Position numbers and translations under genes: made by a program. Under the pieces are notes generated by a model. The model did no database searches. It saw only the letters and a program-made list of their open reading frames with translations, and was not told where the DNA came from. A DNA stretch of 64,000 bases from Gemmatimonadaceae bacterium. GTDB taxonomy: Bacteria; Gemmatimonadota; Gemmatimonadetes; Gemmatimonadales; Gemmatimonadaceae. Positions 39,156 to 45,802 of the stretch are shown piece by piece (the first letter of the stretch is position 1; each line of letters opens with the position of its first letter). The stretch is from NCBI GenBank assembly GCA_025934775.1, contig JAICWO010000002.1, positions 248,001 through 312,000 on the forward strand, given 5' to 3'.

Positions 39156-40808
39156 ATGACTTCGCCACATGCGCCCGGTGCTCAGGCGCCTCTGGCCAAC
39201 GCTCACTCCGTCATGATCAACGAACCGTCCGACGCACCGTCGCCCGAGCTGAACGGACTCGAGGGCACGTACCAGATTCTCACCGAGCTGCACACGTCGC
39301 CCGCGGCCGACACGTATCTCGCGCGCCATCTGACGCTGAACCGCGATGTGACGATCACGGCGTTCCGCGCGAGGGAGGCGGATCGCGGCGGCTTGGACGC
39401 GCTCGCCGCCGACGCGCGGAAGCTGCCGGAGTTGCGTCATGAAAATCTCATTCCAGTTCTCGAAGGCCGTTGGCTGGGCGACGGGCGGTTCGCGGTCGTG
39501 CGCGCGCGGATTCGCGGCTCGACACTCGATCAGGTGATGAGCGCCGTCGGGCCGATGCCCGCCGAACGCGCGGCGGCTGCGCTGCGGCAGGTGCACGCGG
39601 GGCTCGAGTACGCTCGCTCGAACGGGATCGCGCAGCGCAATGTCTCCGCCGATGGGCTCGTCTTTCAGCAGGGAACCGGCCGCGCGATGATGGCGCTCGA
39701 TCCGTTCTTCGGTGAAGGAGCGCCGGCGAGCGATCCGTGCGCCGACGCGCGGACTATCGGACGGCTCGCGACGGCGATGCTGACTGGACAATCCGCCGGC
39801 GCCGCTGATGCCAAGCCGCTCGCGATCGCGCGGCCCGACCTGCCGTCCACCGTCGTGCAGCGGACGAACGCGCTCGCGAACTGCACGGGCGCCGTCGCGC
39901 CGGATATCCCGGCTTACATAGCGCTCCTCGATCCCAGCTCGCGCGCGGTGACCACGGCACCGGCGCCATCAGTGACGGCTCCAGCGTCGAACGATGCGGT
40001 CGTCGTCGTGAACCGCGGCTCGGGGTACAGTGCGCGACTCGCCACCGCGGTGCTCGTCGTGCTCGTGCTCGCGGGACTCGGCATCTTCTGGGTGCACAAC
40101 AGGCAGCAGAATGAGAATCGAGTCTCGGTCACGACGACCGCGCGACCTGATACGAGTACGCTGTCGGCGGGAGATGTCGGTACGCAGACCACGTCGGTGG
40201 CGAACCCGCTGCCGCCGGGCTATCCGATGATCGCCGGATCATCGACACCGACACCACCGCCGCCAATGCCGGCGACGACGCAGCCCGTCGCCGTGCCGCC
40301 GGCGAGTGGGGCGCCTGGCACATACATGCCTGCTCCTCAGCCGGCACCCGTCACCACGGCACCAGTGACCCCGGCGCCCGCGACAGCGCCGACACCGGCG
40401 CCCGTGATGCGCGTTGACACCGCGACGCGCGCGCCAACTCGCGACACCACCATTGCGAGCGGCGGCGACGTTTGCAGCTCGCCGGCGGCCGCGGACCAGC
40501 GTACGTGCTTCAGCAATGCGGTGGCGCACAGCGACGCGGATCTCACGCGCGCCTACAACGCGGCGATCGCCGCGCTCCGCCGCCAAGCCGGCGTGCAGCC
40601 GACGGATCCCGATCCGGCCACGGTGAGCCGGCTTCGCAGCGAGGAGTGGAGCTGGCTGGACAAGCGCGACGCCGCGTGTCGCGGTGCGGGTGCTCCGCCC
40701 CTCTACGCGCAGGCGCGCGCGCAGTGCTATCAGCAGCAGACCGAAGCGCGTATCGCCGAGCTGCAACAGCTTCAATCCGCGCCGCCGGATACGACCGGCA
40801 TGCCTTGA
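39156..40808 (+). CDS. Transmembrane pseudokinase with DUF1311/LprI-like C-terminal domain
   Basis: This is a 550-residue protein. Residues 35-260 resemble a Ser/Thr kinase lobe pair, but the invariant Lys strand reads VTITAF, the HRD loop reads AQRNVSADG (about 159-167) and DFG reads LDPFFG (about 181-186), so catalysis is unlikely. One span (about 293-314) is followed by a Pro/Thr/Ala linker (340-440). A periplasmic domain with four Cys has the DUF1311 pattern: CSSPAAADQRTC, DADLTRAYNAAIAALR, EEWSWLDKRDAAC and QCYQQQTEARIAEL. The combination suggests an envelope sensor that binds something outside and signals through an inactive kinase fold. Confidence 0.72.
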   Translation: MTSPHAPGAQAPLANAHSVMINEPSDAPSPELNGLEGTYQILTELHTSPAADTYLARHLTLNRDVTITAFRAREADRGGLDALAADARKLPELRHENLIPVLEGRWLGDGRFAVVRARIRGSTLDQVMSAVGPMPAERAAAALRQVHAGLEYARSNGIAQRNVSADGLVFQQGTGRAMMALDPFFGEGAPASDPCADARTIGRLATAMLTGQSAGAADAKPLAIARPDLPSTVVQRTNALANCTGAVAPDIPAYIALLDPSSRAVTTAPAPSVTAPASNDAVVVVNRGSGYSARLATAVLVVLVLAGLGIFWVHNRQQNENRVSVTTTARPDTSTLSAGDVGTQTTSVANPLPPGYPMIAGSSTPTPPPPMPATTQPVAVPPASGAPGTYMPAPQPAPVTTAPVTPAPATAPTPAPVMRVDTATRAPTRDTTIASGGDVCSSPAAADQRTCFSNAVAHSDADLTRAYNAAIAALRRQAGVQPTDPDPATVSRLRSEEWSWLDKRDAACRGAGAPPLYAQARAQCYQQQTEARIAELQQLQSAPPDTTGMP

Positions 40809-40840
40809 CTCGCGGAACCAGCGTCCCTTTGTTTCGATTC

Positions 40841-40963
40841 ATGCACCGCATGTACGCCACCCAGTCGCCGCTCGCGCCCACCACCGCCGCCACGTTCGCG
40901 TGTCGGGCGATGTGTTGTCGTGCGCTTGTACACCGGCGGCCGGAAGCGAGGCGCGCGCCCTAA
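40841..40963 (+). CDS. Candidate cysteine leader peptide of the sulfurtransferase/cysteine synthase operon
   Basis: A 40-codon frame contains TGT Cys codons at 21, 25 and 26 (CRAMCC) and ends 34 bases before a terminator stem. GCGGCCGGA (40936-40944), inside codons 32-35, is perfectly complementary to TCCGGCCGC (40996-41004), part of the terminator's left arm. CGCTT (40923-40927) with AAGCG (40944-40948) could shield it. This is the 1:2, 2:3, 3:4 layout of an attenuator: a ribosome waiting at the Cys codons would free the antiterminator. No ribosome site is seen; a TTGACT at 40805 could give a near-leaderless start. Confidence 0.6.
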   Translation: MHRMYATQSPLAPTTAATFACRAMCCRALVHRRPEARRAP

Positions 40964-40997
40964 GACGGCGCTTCGATTTCCAAACGGACACCCACTC

Positions 40998-41030
40998 CGG
41001 CCGCTCACCCGAGCGGCCGTTTTTTGTTTT
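40998..41030 (+). terminator. Attenuator terminator upstream of the cysteine operon
   Basis: A perfect 9-bp stem, CGGCCGCTC (40998-41006) with GAGCGGCCG (41011-41019), is followed by TTTTTTGTTTT. It lies about 40 bases before the first operon gene, and its left arm competes with the antiterminator pairing described for the leader. Confidence 0.85.
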
Positions 41031-41068: not shown

Positions 41069-41935
41069 ATGCCAGATCTCTCAATTGCCGCCAAAGGCTA
41101 CGCCCACCCCGACGCACTCGTCAGCACCGACTGGCTCGCCGCGCATGTCGACGATCCGACGATTCGCATCATCGAGAGCGACGAAGACGTACTGCTCTAC
41201 GACATCGGCCACATTCGCGGCGCGCAGAAGGTCGACTGGCACGCCGACCTCAACGACCCGATCACGCGCGACTACGTGAGCCGGGAAGCGTTCCAGGCGC
41301 TGCTCCGCCGCCTCGGCATCGACAGCTCGACCACCGTCGTCTTCTACGGCGACAAGAACAACTGGTGGGCGACGTACGCGTTCTGGGTCTTTCAACTTTT
41401 CGGATTCAAGAACGCGAAGATCCTCGACGGCGGCCGGATCAAGTGGGAGCAGGAAGGGCGGGAATTCGTAACGGATGTACCCAAATTCCCGCCGTCGGCG
41501 TACGTCGCGCCCGCGCGTGAGGATGCGCCCATCCGCGCGTTCCGTGACGAGGTGCTCGAGCACGCGCGGGCGCCGCGGCCGCTCGTCGACGTCCGCTCGC
41601 CCGACGAGTACTCGGGCAAGAAGACGCACATGCCGGAGTACCCGCAGGAGGGCGTGCTGCGCGGCGGCCACATTCCCGGGGCGAAGAGCGTGCCGTGGGG
41701 CCGCGCCGCGAATCCCGACGGCACGTTCAAATCCGCCGACGAGCTCCGCGCGATCTACGAGAAGGAGCAGGGGCTCGCGCCCGGCGACGACGTCGTCACC
41801 TACTGCCGCATCGGCGAGCGGTCGAGCCACACGTGGTTCGTGCTCTCGTACCTGCTCGGGTATGACAAAGTTCGAACCTACGACGGCTCGTGGACCGAAT
41901 GGGGCAACAGCGTGCGGCTCCCGATCGAGCGATGA
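41069..41935 (+). CDS. Thiosulfate/3-mercaptopyruvate sulfurtransferase (tandem rhodanese)
   Basis: This is a 288-residue two-domain rhodanese: an inactive N-terminal domain (about 15-135) with [19 protein letters not shown], and an active C-terminal domain (about 155-285) with catalytic Cys246 in the loop YCRIGERSS. This is the CysA-type motif that favours thiosulfate. The cytosolic start at ATG 41069 follows the attenuator directly. Gene order with cysteine synthase, overlapping by ATGA, points to sulfane-sulfur delivery for cysteine synthesis. Confidence 0.93.
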
Positions 41936-42879
41936 GCCAGCCACTCGGAGTCGAGACGACCATCGGCGAGACGCCGGTGGTCAAGCTCGCCCGCGTCGTC
42001 GAGCCCGACATGGCCGAAGTCTGGGTCAAGCTCGAGGGAATGAATCCCGGCGGATCGATCAAGGACCGCACCGCGCTCGGCATGGTGCGCGACGCCGAAG
42101 CGCGCGGCTTGATCGGACCGGGCGGCACGATCGTCGAACCGACGTCCGGCAACACGGGCATCGGACTCGCGCAGGTCGCTGCCGCGCGCGGCTACCGCCT
42201 GATCATCTGCCTGCCGTCATCGGCCAGTGAAGAGCGCAAGCGCACGCTCGAAGCCTACGGTGCGCGGCTAGTGCTCACCGATCCCGAGCGGCGCATGCTC
42301 GCGGCGATCGAAGAGGCGAAGCGCATCAGCGCCGAGACGGGCGCGTGGATGCCGCACCAGTTCGAGAATCCGGCCAACCCGCGCGTTCACTACGAGACCA
42401 CGGGGCCCGAGCTCTGGAAATCGCTCGACGGCCGGATCGACGCGTTCGTGTACGGATCGGGGACCGGCGGCACGATCAGCGGCGTCGGACGATTTCTCAA
42501 GGAACGCGATCGCGCGATCCAGATCATCGCCGTCGAGCCGGCGCGCTCGCCCGTGCTCTCGGGGGGCGAGCGCGGCGCGCATCAGTTTCAAGGAATGGGA
42601 CCGGGATTCATCCCCGGGAACTTCGACTGGAGCGTCGTCGACCGCGTCATCCCGGTGTGGGAGGAGGAGGCGTTTCCGCTCGCCCGCAGGCTCGCGCACG
42701 ACGAGGGGCTCTTCGTCGGGATGTCGAGCGGAGCGACGGCGTTCGCGGCGCTGCGCGTGGCGCGCGAGCTCGGCCCCGCGAAGCGCGTTGCGTGGATCTC
42801 GCCGGATTCCGGCGCGCGGTATCTCACGACGTCGCTGTTCGCCGCGTATGATTCCGCGGTCCCCACCGAGCTCCCATGA
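41932..42879 (+). CDS. Cysteine synthase-type PLP enzyme
   Basis: This is a 315-residue fold-type II enzyme. The PLP lysine is near residue 43 (NPGGSIKDR), the substrate loop is [11 protein letters not shown] near 76-86 and the phosphate cup is [12 protein letters not shown] near 178-189. It condenses O-acetylserine (or phosphoserine or cystathionine-type analogues) with sulfide or thiosulfate. ATG overlaps the sulfurtransferase stop, and its own stop overlaps the next gene. Adjacent sulfurtransferase and Cys-codon leader support cysteine synthesis; CysK versus CysM type was not resolved. Confidence 0.92.
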
Positions 42880-44285
42880 TCCTCACGCCGACTCTCTTTC
42901 TCATTGCCGCCGCGGCCGCCGCGCACGCGAGCGCGGCACTGCCCAACACGCTCCCGGACTCCATCGTTCGGCGCATCGATTCGGTCTTTGCTGCGTACGA
43001 TCGCGCCGACGTGCCTGGGTGCGCGGTCGGCGTGTATCAGAACGGTGAAATAGCATTCGAGAAAGGGTATGGGTCGGCGAATCTGGAGTACCGGATTCCG
43101 ATCACGCCCACCACGCCGTTCATCATGGGCTCGGTGTCGAAGCAATTCACGGCGGCGGCGATCGCGCTGCTCGCGGACGACGGCCGTCTCTCGCTCGACG
43201 ACGACGTGCGGAAGTACCTCCCCGAGCTACCCGACTACGGCCAGCGCATCACCATCAACGAGCTCGTCCATCATACGAGCGGGCTGCGCGACTTCTGGGC
43301 GCTCGTCGAGGCCGCGGGCATGCGGCTCGACGACACGTACGCCGTGGCCGACGTGCTCGATCTCGCCGCGCGCCAGAAGCACCTCGAGTTCACGCCGGGC
43401 GCGGCGTACGACTACAGCAACACCGGCTACGTCGTGCTCGGCGAGATCGCGCGGCGGGTGTCGGGAGAATCGCTCGCCCGCTTCGCCGCCGAAAACATCT
43501 TCGCGCCGCTCGGCATGACGCACACGCATTTCCAGGACGATCATACGGTGATCGTTCCCGGGCGCGCCTATGCCTACATGCCGCACGCGGGCGGCTGGCG
43601 CATCGACGTCTGGAACAACGACATCGTCGGGCAGGGCGGCCTCATGACGACCGTCGAGGATTTACAAAAGTGGGATGAGAATTTTTATACCGGCCGCGTG
43701 GGCGGCCCGCGCTTCCTGGCCCGCCAGCTCGAGCAGGGGCGCCTGAACGACGGCACCGTGCTGAGCTACGCCTTCGGCCTCGAGGTCGGCGCGTACCGCG
43801 GACTGCGCCTCGTCGAGCACACGGGGAGCACGGGCGGATACCGCACGATCATCAGCCGATTCCCGAGCGCGCACACCAGCGTCGTGGCGCTGTGCAACGC
43901 GAGCAACGTGAACACCACTACGTTGTCGCGCCGCGTCGCCGACGTTGTGCTCGCGTCGTCCTTCACGTCGCCCGCGCCCGCGCCGCGGATCGCCGCGGCG
44001 ACTCGCGTTCGCCAGGCATCGGCTCCGACGACCGCGGTCCCCGCCGACGAGGCCGCGCGCCTCGCGGGCCGCTACTACTCCGACGAGCTCGCGGCGACGT
44101 TCTCGGTGCGCGACTCGCTCGGCACGCTGCTGCTGCAGCGTCCGCGCGCCGGGTCGGAGACGCTCATGGTCGTGGCGCCGCACGCATTTCGGACGGGCAA
44201 CATGACGCTCACGTTCAACGCGGCCGGCTTCACGCTCGACGTGGGCCGGGCGAGAGGGATCGAGTTCGTGCGGCGCGAGCGGTGA
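42876..44285 (+). CDS. Exported serine beta-lactamase-like hydrolase (class C/DD-peptidase fold)
   Basis: This is a 469-residue secreted protein with a signal peptide (about 1-21). The SxxK box is Ser86-Lys89 (GSVSKQFTAAAI), the Tyr box is YDYSNTG near 187, and the third box is EHTGSTGG near 314. A C-terminal lipocalin-like extension (about 390-469) starts with AARLAGRYYSDEL. Family members are esterases, D-aminopeptidases or beta-lactamase relatives. The ATGA overlap with cysteine synthase puts it in the Cys-regulated operon, an odd partnership whose purpose is unclear. Confidence 0.88.
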   Translation: MILTPTLFLIAAAAAAHASAALPNTLPDSIVRRIDSVFAAYDRADVPGCAVGVYQNGEIAFEKGYGSANLEYRIPITPTTPFIMGSVSKQFTAAAIALLADDGRLSLDDDVRKYLPELPDYGQRITINELVHHTSGLRDFWALVEAAGMRLDDTYAVADVLDLAARQKHLEFTPGAAYDYSNTGYVVLGEIARRVSGESLARFAAENIFAPLGMTHTHFQDDHTVIVPGRAYAYMPHAGGWRIDVWNNDIVGQGGLMTTVEDLQKWDENFYTGRVGGPRFLARQLEQGRLNDGTVLSYAFGLEVGAYRGLRLVEHTGSTGGYRTIISRFPSAHTSVVALCNASNVNTTTLSRRVADVVLASSFTSPAPAPRIAAATRVRQASAPTTAVPADEAARLAGRYYSDELAATFSVRDSLGTLLLQRPRAGSETLMVVAPHAFRTGNMTLTFNAAGFTLDVGRARGIEFVRRER

Positions 44286-44330: not shown

Positions 44331-44480
44331 GGAACGGTACTACAATTGAGCGGAGAACGAGCGAAGTTAGCGAATGACTTTGCGGGCGGGTGAGCACCTG
44401 ATCGAGAAGGAGCTGACGTTCTCGACCATCGGTGCGTTCGTTCGCTCCCTTCGTTGACTTCCGCTCAATTGTAGTTCCCC
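44331..44480. repeat. 150-bp inverted-repeat element with ACTACAATTGAGCGGA arms
   Basis: ACTACAATTGAGCGGA (44339-44354) and its perfect inverse (44460-44475) enclose about 105 bases in which further GAACGAGCGAA/TTCGTTCGCTC segments can pair. The ends match the element at 10989-11084. It follows the serine hydrolase gene and may end its transcript; bases 44481-44531 hold nothing else recognisable. Confidence 0.8.
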
Positions 44481-44531
44481 CCCGCCCAATCCACCTCGGA
44501 GGCAACGCCGCTGGCGCCGAGCGACGGGATC

Positions 44532-44560: not shown

Positions 44561-44578
44561 CAGCGCACAATCGATCGA

Positions 44579-44627
44579 CCGTGGTGATTTGCCGCCTATT
44601 GCCGCCACGTAAAACAAAGTGCTAAAA
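44579..44627 (+). ncRNA. SAM-II riboswitch aptamer (SAM_alpha)
   Basis: The sequence fits the SAM-II pattern from memory. Stem CGTGG (44580-44584) pairs with CCACG (44605-44609). The conserved TGATTTG follows the first strand and TTGC stands in the loop. TAAAACAAAGTGCTAAAA after the stem supplies the pseudoknot strand with the invariant GCTAAA. A terminator follows within eight bases, so SAM binding should favour termination. The downstream genes are metX-, metB- and hom-like, the usual targets of this class. Confidence 0.88.
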
Positions 44628-44633
44628 CGCGAC

Positions 44634-44670
44634 AAGCCCGGCGGCTGTTTCCGCCCGGGCTTTTTCGTTT
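44634..44670 (+). terminator. SAM-II expression-platform terminator
   Basis: AAGCCCGGCGG (44634-44644) pairs with CCGCCCGGGCTT (44651-44662) with one bulged base, followed by TTTTTCGTTTT. It lies directly after the aptamer. Confidence 0.88.
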
Positions 44671-44698
44671 TCGGCTTCTACTTCGCTCAACACGCTCG

Positions 44699-44794
44699 AT
44701 GATCATCTCGATGCGCCGGATGCAGATGCGAATGTCGATGGCGGCCGCTTCTCTCGCGAGAGGATCGGACGGGCGACATCGCTTGCGCGCATAG
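44699..44794 (+). CDS. Candidate methionine leader peptide of the metX-metB-hom operon
   Basis: A 31-codon frame has ATG at codons 1, 5, 8, 10, 12 and 14 (MIISMRRMQMRMSM) and stops at 44792. CTCTC (44751-44755) can pair with GAGAG (44758-44762), and GAGAGG (44758-44763) with CCTCTC (44832-44837) at the tip of the next terminator. A ribosome slowed at the Met run would cover the first segment and favour the second pairing, preventing termination. GCTCGATGA (44694-44702) and TCATCGAGC (44796-44804) are perfectly complementary and would close the whole region when it is not translated. No ribosome site is visible, which is the main weakness. Confidence 0.5.
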   Translation: MIISMRRMQMRMSMAAASLARGSDGRHRLRA

Positions 44795-44821
44795 CTCATC
44801 GAGCACACGCATACGCGGTTC

Positions 44822-44856
44822 AACCCCCGGGCCTCTCAGAGGCTCGGGGGTTTTCG
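44822..44856 (+). terminator. Second leader terminator before metX
   Basis: AACCCCCGGGCCTC (44822-44835) pairs with GAGGCTCGGGGGTT (44839-44852) over 14 positions with one G-T pair and a three-base loop, followed by a short T run. It ends about 20 bases before the metX ribosome site. Confidence 0.82.
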
Positions 44857-44887
44857 CTGTTCGTGAATCGCGGATCGAGGAATCGGC

Positions 44888-45802
44888 ATGGCTGAACTAC
44901 CAAACTTCGAGGTCGTTGGACCGGACGATGCGCCGCTCGTCGTCGTGCTCGGCGGGATCTCCGCCTCGCGCCATGTCGCGGCGCACTCGGCGGATCCCGC
45001 GCCCGGCTGGTGGGAGGAGATCGTCGGCCCCGGCCGCGCGATCGACACCGATCGGCTGCGCGTCCTCAGCATCGACTATCTCGACGGCGGCCGCGGGAGC
45101 GACGGCCGGCCGAAGCGCACCGTCTCGACGCGCGATCAGGCGGACGCGATCGCGCGCGTGCTGAGCGAGATCGCCGTGCTTCGCGCGCACGCGTTCGTCG
45201 GCGCGTCATACGGCGGCATGGTCGCGCTGGCGTTCGGCGCAACCTACCCGGCCCGCGCGCGCCAGCTCGTCGTCATCAGCGCGCCGCACGAGCCCCACCC
45301 GATGAGCACCGCGCTGCGCGCGCTCCAGCGCCGCATCGTGCAGCTCGGGATCGACACGGGCGAGGCGACGGAGGCGTTGGCGATCGCGCGCGGGCTCGCG
45401 ATGACGACGTATCGCTCCGCGCGCGAGTTCGGCGAGCGGTTCGACGCCGATCCGATCGAACGGACCGCGAACGACGCGATCTTCCCGGTCGAGGGCTACC
45501 TGCGTCACCACGGCGAGAAGTTCGCAGCGACGTGGACGCCCCATCGCTTCCTCGCGCTCTCCCTCTCGGCCGATCTCCACCGCATCGACCCGGCGGCGAT
45601 TCGCGCGCCGACGCTGCTCATCGCCGCCCAAGGCGACGCGATCGTCCCCGGCGAGCAGATGGCCGCGCTGTCCGCGCGACTCGTCGCACCGCACCAACTC
45701 GTCGAGCTGCCGACCAAGTGCGGCCACGACGCATTTCTCACCGAACCGGAGGCGCTCGGGCGCCTCCTCAGAACATCCCTGGCCACCACGAGACTCTCAT
45801 GA
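44888..45802 (+). CDS. metX: Homoserine O-acyltransferase-like protein (MetX family, alpha/beta hydrolase)
   Basis: This is a 304-residue alpha/beta-hydrolase-fold acyltransferase with nucleophile Ser107 (GASYGGM), a late Asp in AAQGDAIVPGEQM and His in CGHDAFL. It would acylate homoserine from acetyl- or succinyl-CoA, the first committed step of methionine synthesis. It is shorter than typical MetX (about 350-380 residues), mainly in the lid. GAGG stands seven bases before the ATG. It opens a three-gene operon overlapping metB by ATGA, behind a SAM-II riboswitch. Acyl preference cannot be read. Confidence 0.85.
   Translation: MAELPNFEVVGPDDAPLVVVLGGISASRHVAAHSADPAPGWWEEIVGPGRAIDTDRLRVLSIDYLDGGRGSDGRPKRTVSTRDQADAIARVLSEIAVLRAHAFVGASYGGMVALAFGATYPARARQLVVISAPHEPHPMSTALRALQRRIVQLGIDTGEATEALAIARGLAMTTYRSAREFGERFDADPIERTANDAIFPVEGYLRHHGEKFAATWTPHRFLALSLSADLHRIDPAAIRAPTLLIAAQGDAIVPGEQMAALSARLVAPHQLVELPTKCGHDAFLTEPEALGRLLRTSLATTRLS

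Follow-up and report, generated by a model that had tools for sequence, protein, structure and literature searches.

The sulfurtransferase–cysK operon in this stretch of DNA from a soil-type bacterium of the Gemmatimonadaceae is preceded by what is, with a probability of roughly 0.86, a transcription attenuator of the ribosome-mediated type, with charged tRNA-Cys as the sensed signal. In the window (the whole 64,000-nucleotide stretch that was analysed), the locus combines a leader ORF in which codons for the amino acid made by the operon are frequent, an intrinsic terminator ahead of the first structural gene, and an antiterminator that excludes this terminator. Since Cys-rich ORFs with competing hairpins recur in distant relatives, the supply of cysteine is very probably gauged via the transit of ribosomes across the Cys codons. 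The kind of element is more certain than the strength of the regulation exerted by the copy in the window.

All genes and features of the locus lie on the forward strand. The first structural gene (41069-41935) encodes a thiosulfate sulfurtransferase of the double rhodanese type (PF00581; relatives 1uar, 3hzu, and 3hwi), and is followed with an ATGA overlap by cysK, encoding cysteine synthase A (41932-42879; TIGR01139, 422.9 bits against a cut-off of 351). These assignments bear out the view of the earlier note that the operon makes cysteine. A gene for a serine beta-lactamase-like hydrolase (42876-44285; PF00144) overlaps cysK by ATGA in turn and is probably part of the same transcript. The gene upstream of the leader is likewise on this strand and extends to 40808, where its end is overlapped by the -35 box of the candidate promoter. 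This gene (39156-40808) has a kinase-like N-terminal part (weak match) and a C-terminal LprI domain (PF07007).

The leader ORF (40841-40963) extends from an ATG at 40841 to a TAA at 40961-40963 and comprises 40 codons, with the predicted peptide MHRMYATQSPLAPTTAATFACRAMCCRALVHRRPEARRAP; Cys-rich ORFs occupy the equivalent place in relatives. Its TGT codons at 40901 (40901-40903), 40913, and 40916 are Cys codons 21, 25, and 26, the last two of which (40913-40918) form the presumed stall site. Further downstream, but still within the ORF, the antiterminator 5' strand GCGGCCGGA (40936-40944) is perfectly complementary to TCCGGCCGC (40996-41004). The latter segment overlaps the 5' arm of the terminator hairpin CGGCCGCTC-ACCC-GAGCGGCCG (40998-41019), which has a 9-bp stem and a 4-nt loop and is followed by TTTTTT (41020-41025), and the antiterminator and terminator (40998-41025) are thus mutually exclusive. 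The antiterminator encloses a further predicted hairpin (40947-40975), which holds the leader stop codon and whose GAAGC/GCTTC flanks are kept in a related leader, L003. The 40-codon frame with its three Cys codons, as well as the perfect 9-bp antiterminator competing with a 9-bp terminator and six T, had been described in the earlier note, and both descriptions are exact to the base.

Folding statistics agreed with this arrangement. The terminator (-19.6 kcal/mol, z = -6.0) and the antiterminator segment at 40928-41006 (-37.3, z = -3.5) both folded better than their shuffles, none of 200 being as good in either case, and the duplex between the spacer and the terminator arm was better than with shuffled spacers (z = -3.2). 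The folding of the whole leader taken alone was not unusual against shuffles (z = -0.7) and is uninformative. The terminator hairpin sequence occurs once in the 4.88-Mb genome. No curated Rfam family matched 40805-41030, which was assigned neither to the cysteine or SAM riboswitches nor to the T-boxes, the sole Rfam match in the window being SAM_alpha at 44571-44642, and no NCBIfam model matched the leader of the window or ten further leaders.

Because random short ORFs of like base composition would give clustered Cys codons (CC or CxC) in about one in nine regions (4.0 of 35), the case is decided by comparison with relatives. Sequences preceding the genes of orthologous sulfurtransferases were collected within the family and the phylum and from a named genome collection, yielding 202 non-redundant regions, among which an intrinsic terminator was found in 35. 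An ORF with CC or CxC preceded the terminator in 26 of these 35, against 4.0 ± 1.7 expected from dinucleotide shuffles, and none of 300 shuffled sets reached 26. In the same 35 regions the Cys cluster had a z of 13.1, and no other amino acid came near it; the next was Met (z = 7.0), owing in part to repetition of ATG at 5' ends and in part to two leaders with real Met clusters. Among the 167 regions without a detected terminator, CC/CxC was mildly enriched (17 versus 9.7 expected). The earlier note had suggested looking for conserved Cys codons in orthologous operons, and in those that keep the terminator they are indeed conserved (26 of 35). The pattern it had named as contrary to its reading, Cys codons lost with the terminator kept, was seen once, in L042. 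In this close relative the promoter and a terminator-like hairpin with a poor T-tract are kept and the leader ORF is lost.

The leader peptides are otherwise largely dissimilar to one another, as illustrated by MVMMQSRKDQSMCACCRAAHRWPGGSARRRC (L002), MSFRDRMCCCACTAARRPGRSALAA (L167), MTSRFCRRPSRPSCMCCRACAALMRPGRNVRAA (L019), and MANMTQLCICSGPHRGPAGAWVSS (L187), and by MMTMPLYPPAVCCPTCCCTQRFMLPARGGMSVI (L070) from Chloroflexota. Between genera the leader and terminator sequences vary, and the Cys codons and the layout stay constant. Two leaders of genus g31 (L086 and L187) shift frame after the Cys codons while keeping the Cys codons, the stems, and the position of the stop, a change more in keeping with the sensing of codons than with a peptide that has a function of its own. 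Furthermore, conservation in the alignments starts at the -35 box, and the sequence before the box is unrelated. The candidate promoter in the window (40806-40834) reads TTGACT-17-TTTGTT-7-ATG, with the -35 box at 40806-40811, a 17-nt spacer, and a weak -10 box, TTTGTT, at 40829-40834; the boxes are promoter-like, and the start sites are predicted from them. This geometry, supported by the alignments, is shared with 18 other loci, and in all 19 an ATG or GTG lies 4-11 nt (mostly 6-7 nt) after the -10 box, about 7 nt in the window. With start codons so close to the promoter, the leaders look leaderless wherever a promoter is recognisable, and the window ORF is probably translated leaderless or nearly so.

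The competing stems were also compared across loci. In most loci, 9-27 nt separate the last clustered Cys codon from the start of the antiterminator strand, whose end falls ahead of the stop or close to it; a few loci deviate (e.g., L090 and L096). This position would let the strand just clear a ribosome halted at the Cys codons, in line with the earlier proposal that the Cys codons are suitably placed relative to the pairing segments. Pairing of the spacer with the terminator surpassed that of shuffled spacers across loci (combined p about 1e-13), and antiterminators paired better with their own terminator than with swapped ones from other loci, a result that 0 of 20,000 permutations matched and that was retained when one locus per lineage was used. 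The compensatory changes in the alternative stems for which the earlier note had proposed a search are thus present, and two paralogous leaders of one genome provide a case, with GCGGCCGG/CCGGCCGC in L003 versus GCGGCCGA/TCGGCCGC in L256. What is observed comprises the elements, their recurrence and co-variation across many genomes, and the placement of the Cys codons with respect to the strands. A separate protector (1:2) hairpin was considered as a general feature and rejected (mean z = -0.7), as it was evident in a single genus and in a few loci elsewhere.

On this basis we infer how translation of the leader, stalling, and termination may depend on cysteine. RNA polymerase would begin transcription at the leader ATG or close by, and the 5' end of the transcript would be loaded with a ribosome. 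When charged tRNA-Cys is scarce, the ribosome would halt at 40913-40918 and leave 40936-40944 free to pair with 40996-41004, thereby blocking the terminator and allowing transcription of the sulfurtransferase–cysK operon. When cysteine is ample, the ribosome would reach the stop at 40961 and occupy or disrupt the antiterminator region, so that the hairpin at 40998-41019 could form and transcription would stop at the T-tract. In a model with an imposed ribosome footprint, at the stage when the 3' arm has yet to be transcribed, antiterminator formation was 0.67 with the ribosome on the Cys codons versus 0.29 with the ribosome at the stop, and the direction was as expected in 21 of 23 loci. This is consistency and not proof, given that the strand lies between the Cys codons and the stop and that the modelled geometry is in part a consequence of this.

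In the same model, the window copy gave 0.39-0.57 for the stalled ribosome versus 0.54 at the stop, showing no separation. The window copy is one of the weaker members of the element, and this poor discrimination, together with the weak -10 box and the fewer Cys codons than in L003, could mean that it is a family member in decay, mostly constitutive or weakly regulated. We consider such decay unlikely, as the ORF is intact, the antiterminator is perfect over 9 bp and its fold is well beyond the shuffles (z = -3.5), and the terminator is intact with its six T.

Comparable designs are known from other systems. Classical attenuators of the trp and his type carry codons for the product amino acid in the leader, with a mutually exclusive antiterminator and terminator. 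The present element is alike in both respects and differs in its apparently leaderless start, in the location of the antiterminator strand inside the leader ORF, and in the protector hairpin being clear only in some lineages. A second design is that of the mycobacteria, where leaderless polycysteine ORFs are cysteine-responsive attenuators (Canestrari et al. 2020, Mol Microbiol 114:93, as cited in PMC9031893, PMC9094748, and PMC13236596). As outlined in these citing papers, the mycobacterial ORFs are likewise short, leaderless, rich in Cys codons, and cysteine-sensing, and precede cysteine or sulfur operons, features that here are read from sequence; the outline given there is of attenuated downstream translation, whereas an intrinsic terminator with a competing antiterminator stands behind the ORF here, in other phyla. 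Cys leader peptides have also been predicted for cys/cbs operons of Mycobacterium, Propionibacterium, and Bifidobacterium (Seliverstov et al. 2005, PMC1262725), similarly with runs of Cys codons close to the stop and ahead of cysteine genes, but conserved terminator hairpins were not found there and Rho was proposed. In Rhodobacterales, the uORFC-8-2 motif upstream of cysS is a predicted ribosome-mediated attenuator (PMC8632094) that shares tandem Cys codons and a terminal hairpin with a U-run; it belongs to a cysteinyl-tRNA synthetase gene in Alphaproteobacteria, and the likeness noted is one of design. No report of such an element in Gemmatimonadota or Chloroflexota was found in a search centred on open-access literature, and with the above precedents elsewhere the element is thus a known type in new phyla.

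These precedents raise the prospect that the leaderless Cys ORF acts through translational attenuation by coupling or through Rho-type polarity, as has been proposed for the mycobacterial leaders, with the hairpin playing a minor part. The mycobacterial leaderless polycysteine design, which is reported to function with no conserved terminator hairpin found (PMC9031893, PMC1262725), would be in keeping with this, as would the slight enrichment of Cys clusters in regions that lack a terminator; set against the strong intrinsic terminator, the T-tract, and the matching, co-varying antiterminator found here, such a mode of action appears quite improbable. Least probable of all, and very much so, is that the hairpin just terminates transcription at the 3' end of the upstream gene (39156-40808), with the Cys ORF and the complementary strand arising by chance. 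In favour of this, that gene shares the strand of the leader and stops at 40808 with no other strong terminator between, and the leader as a whole has no unusual structure. Against it, many genera have the unit of leader and terminator ahead of the sulfurtransferase gene, the conservation begins only at the -35 box with unrelated sequence before it, and the Cys cluster has a z of 13.

The attenuator interpretation extends to a patchy set of loci. The Cys-leader element is present in both Gemmatimonadota and Chloroflexota, but as indicated by the 167 of 202 regions without a detected terminator, most orthologs are without it, in part because the sulfurtransferase gene sits in a different context; in the genus of the window it was found in two of six genomes. 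No clear Cys leaders were seen in the Actinobacterial orthologs recovered, and descent from the mycobacterial element is therefore not supported. Moreover, Cys leaders with terminators also precede cysH-type genes (L230 and L233), a cysC-type operon (L238), and the second cysK operon of G004 (L256). The segment with complementarity to the terminator appears to precede the Cys codons in L230 and L233, a topology unlike that explained by the proposed mechanism. On the reverse strand, L035 and L036 have a mixed Cys/Met leader (CMRMPIGMRMC) with a terminator, about 150-350 nt upstream of a sulfurtransferase gene that is followed by a homoserine-kinase-like gene, and this leader is possibly a sensor of both sulfur amino acids.

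A Met leader region (44571-44860) lies further downstream in the window, where the order is a SAM-II riboswitch (RF00521, 44571-44642) with its own terminator, a Met-codon-rich ORF (44699-44794; MIISMRRMQMRMSMAAASLARGSDGRHRLRA), and a second terminator, followed by a gene for a metX-like alpha/beta hydrolase at 44888. Two genomes of the same genus have the identical order (L224, with MHSMISTTAQSMRMTMTTASPTGATDGRSRMRA, and L225, with many Met codons), and L223 from another genus has the SAM-II riboswitch without the Met ORF. The Met leader of the earlier note is therefore real in sequence in three genomes of one genus, including that of the window, but it follows the riboswitch, so that codon sensing is not the sole control of the Met operon; a codon sensor appears to be present there in addition to the riboswitch, a candidate tandem. 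Between the hydrolase gene and the riboswitch there is an imperfect inverted repeat, CTACAATTGAGCGG ... CCGCTCAATTGTAG, at 44337-44485.

A broader reading, which we regard as tentative and somewhat short of an even chance, is that, throughout Gemmatimonadota and in part of Chloroflexota, codon-sensing attenuation may be a main control of the genes for sulfur amino acids, with leaderless Cys leaders on sulfurtransferase–cysK, cysH, cysC, and second cysK operons, Cys plus Met leaders in L035 and L036, and a SAM-II riboswitch plus Met-codon attenuator on the Met operon. By combining a start that appears leaderless with an intrinsic terminator, the element would unite two known designs, the leaderless polycysteine sORF and the intrinsic-terminator attenuator, and it offers a testable candidate for a protein-free cysteine sensor in two phyla for which none was found described. 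The many natural variants allow the Cys codons, spacing, and stems to be compared. Together with the adjoining candidate riboswitch-plus-leader tandem, these elements suggest that the control of sulfur amino acids in this lineage may run largely on RNA.
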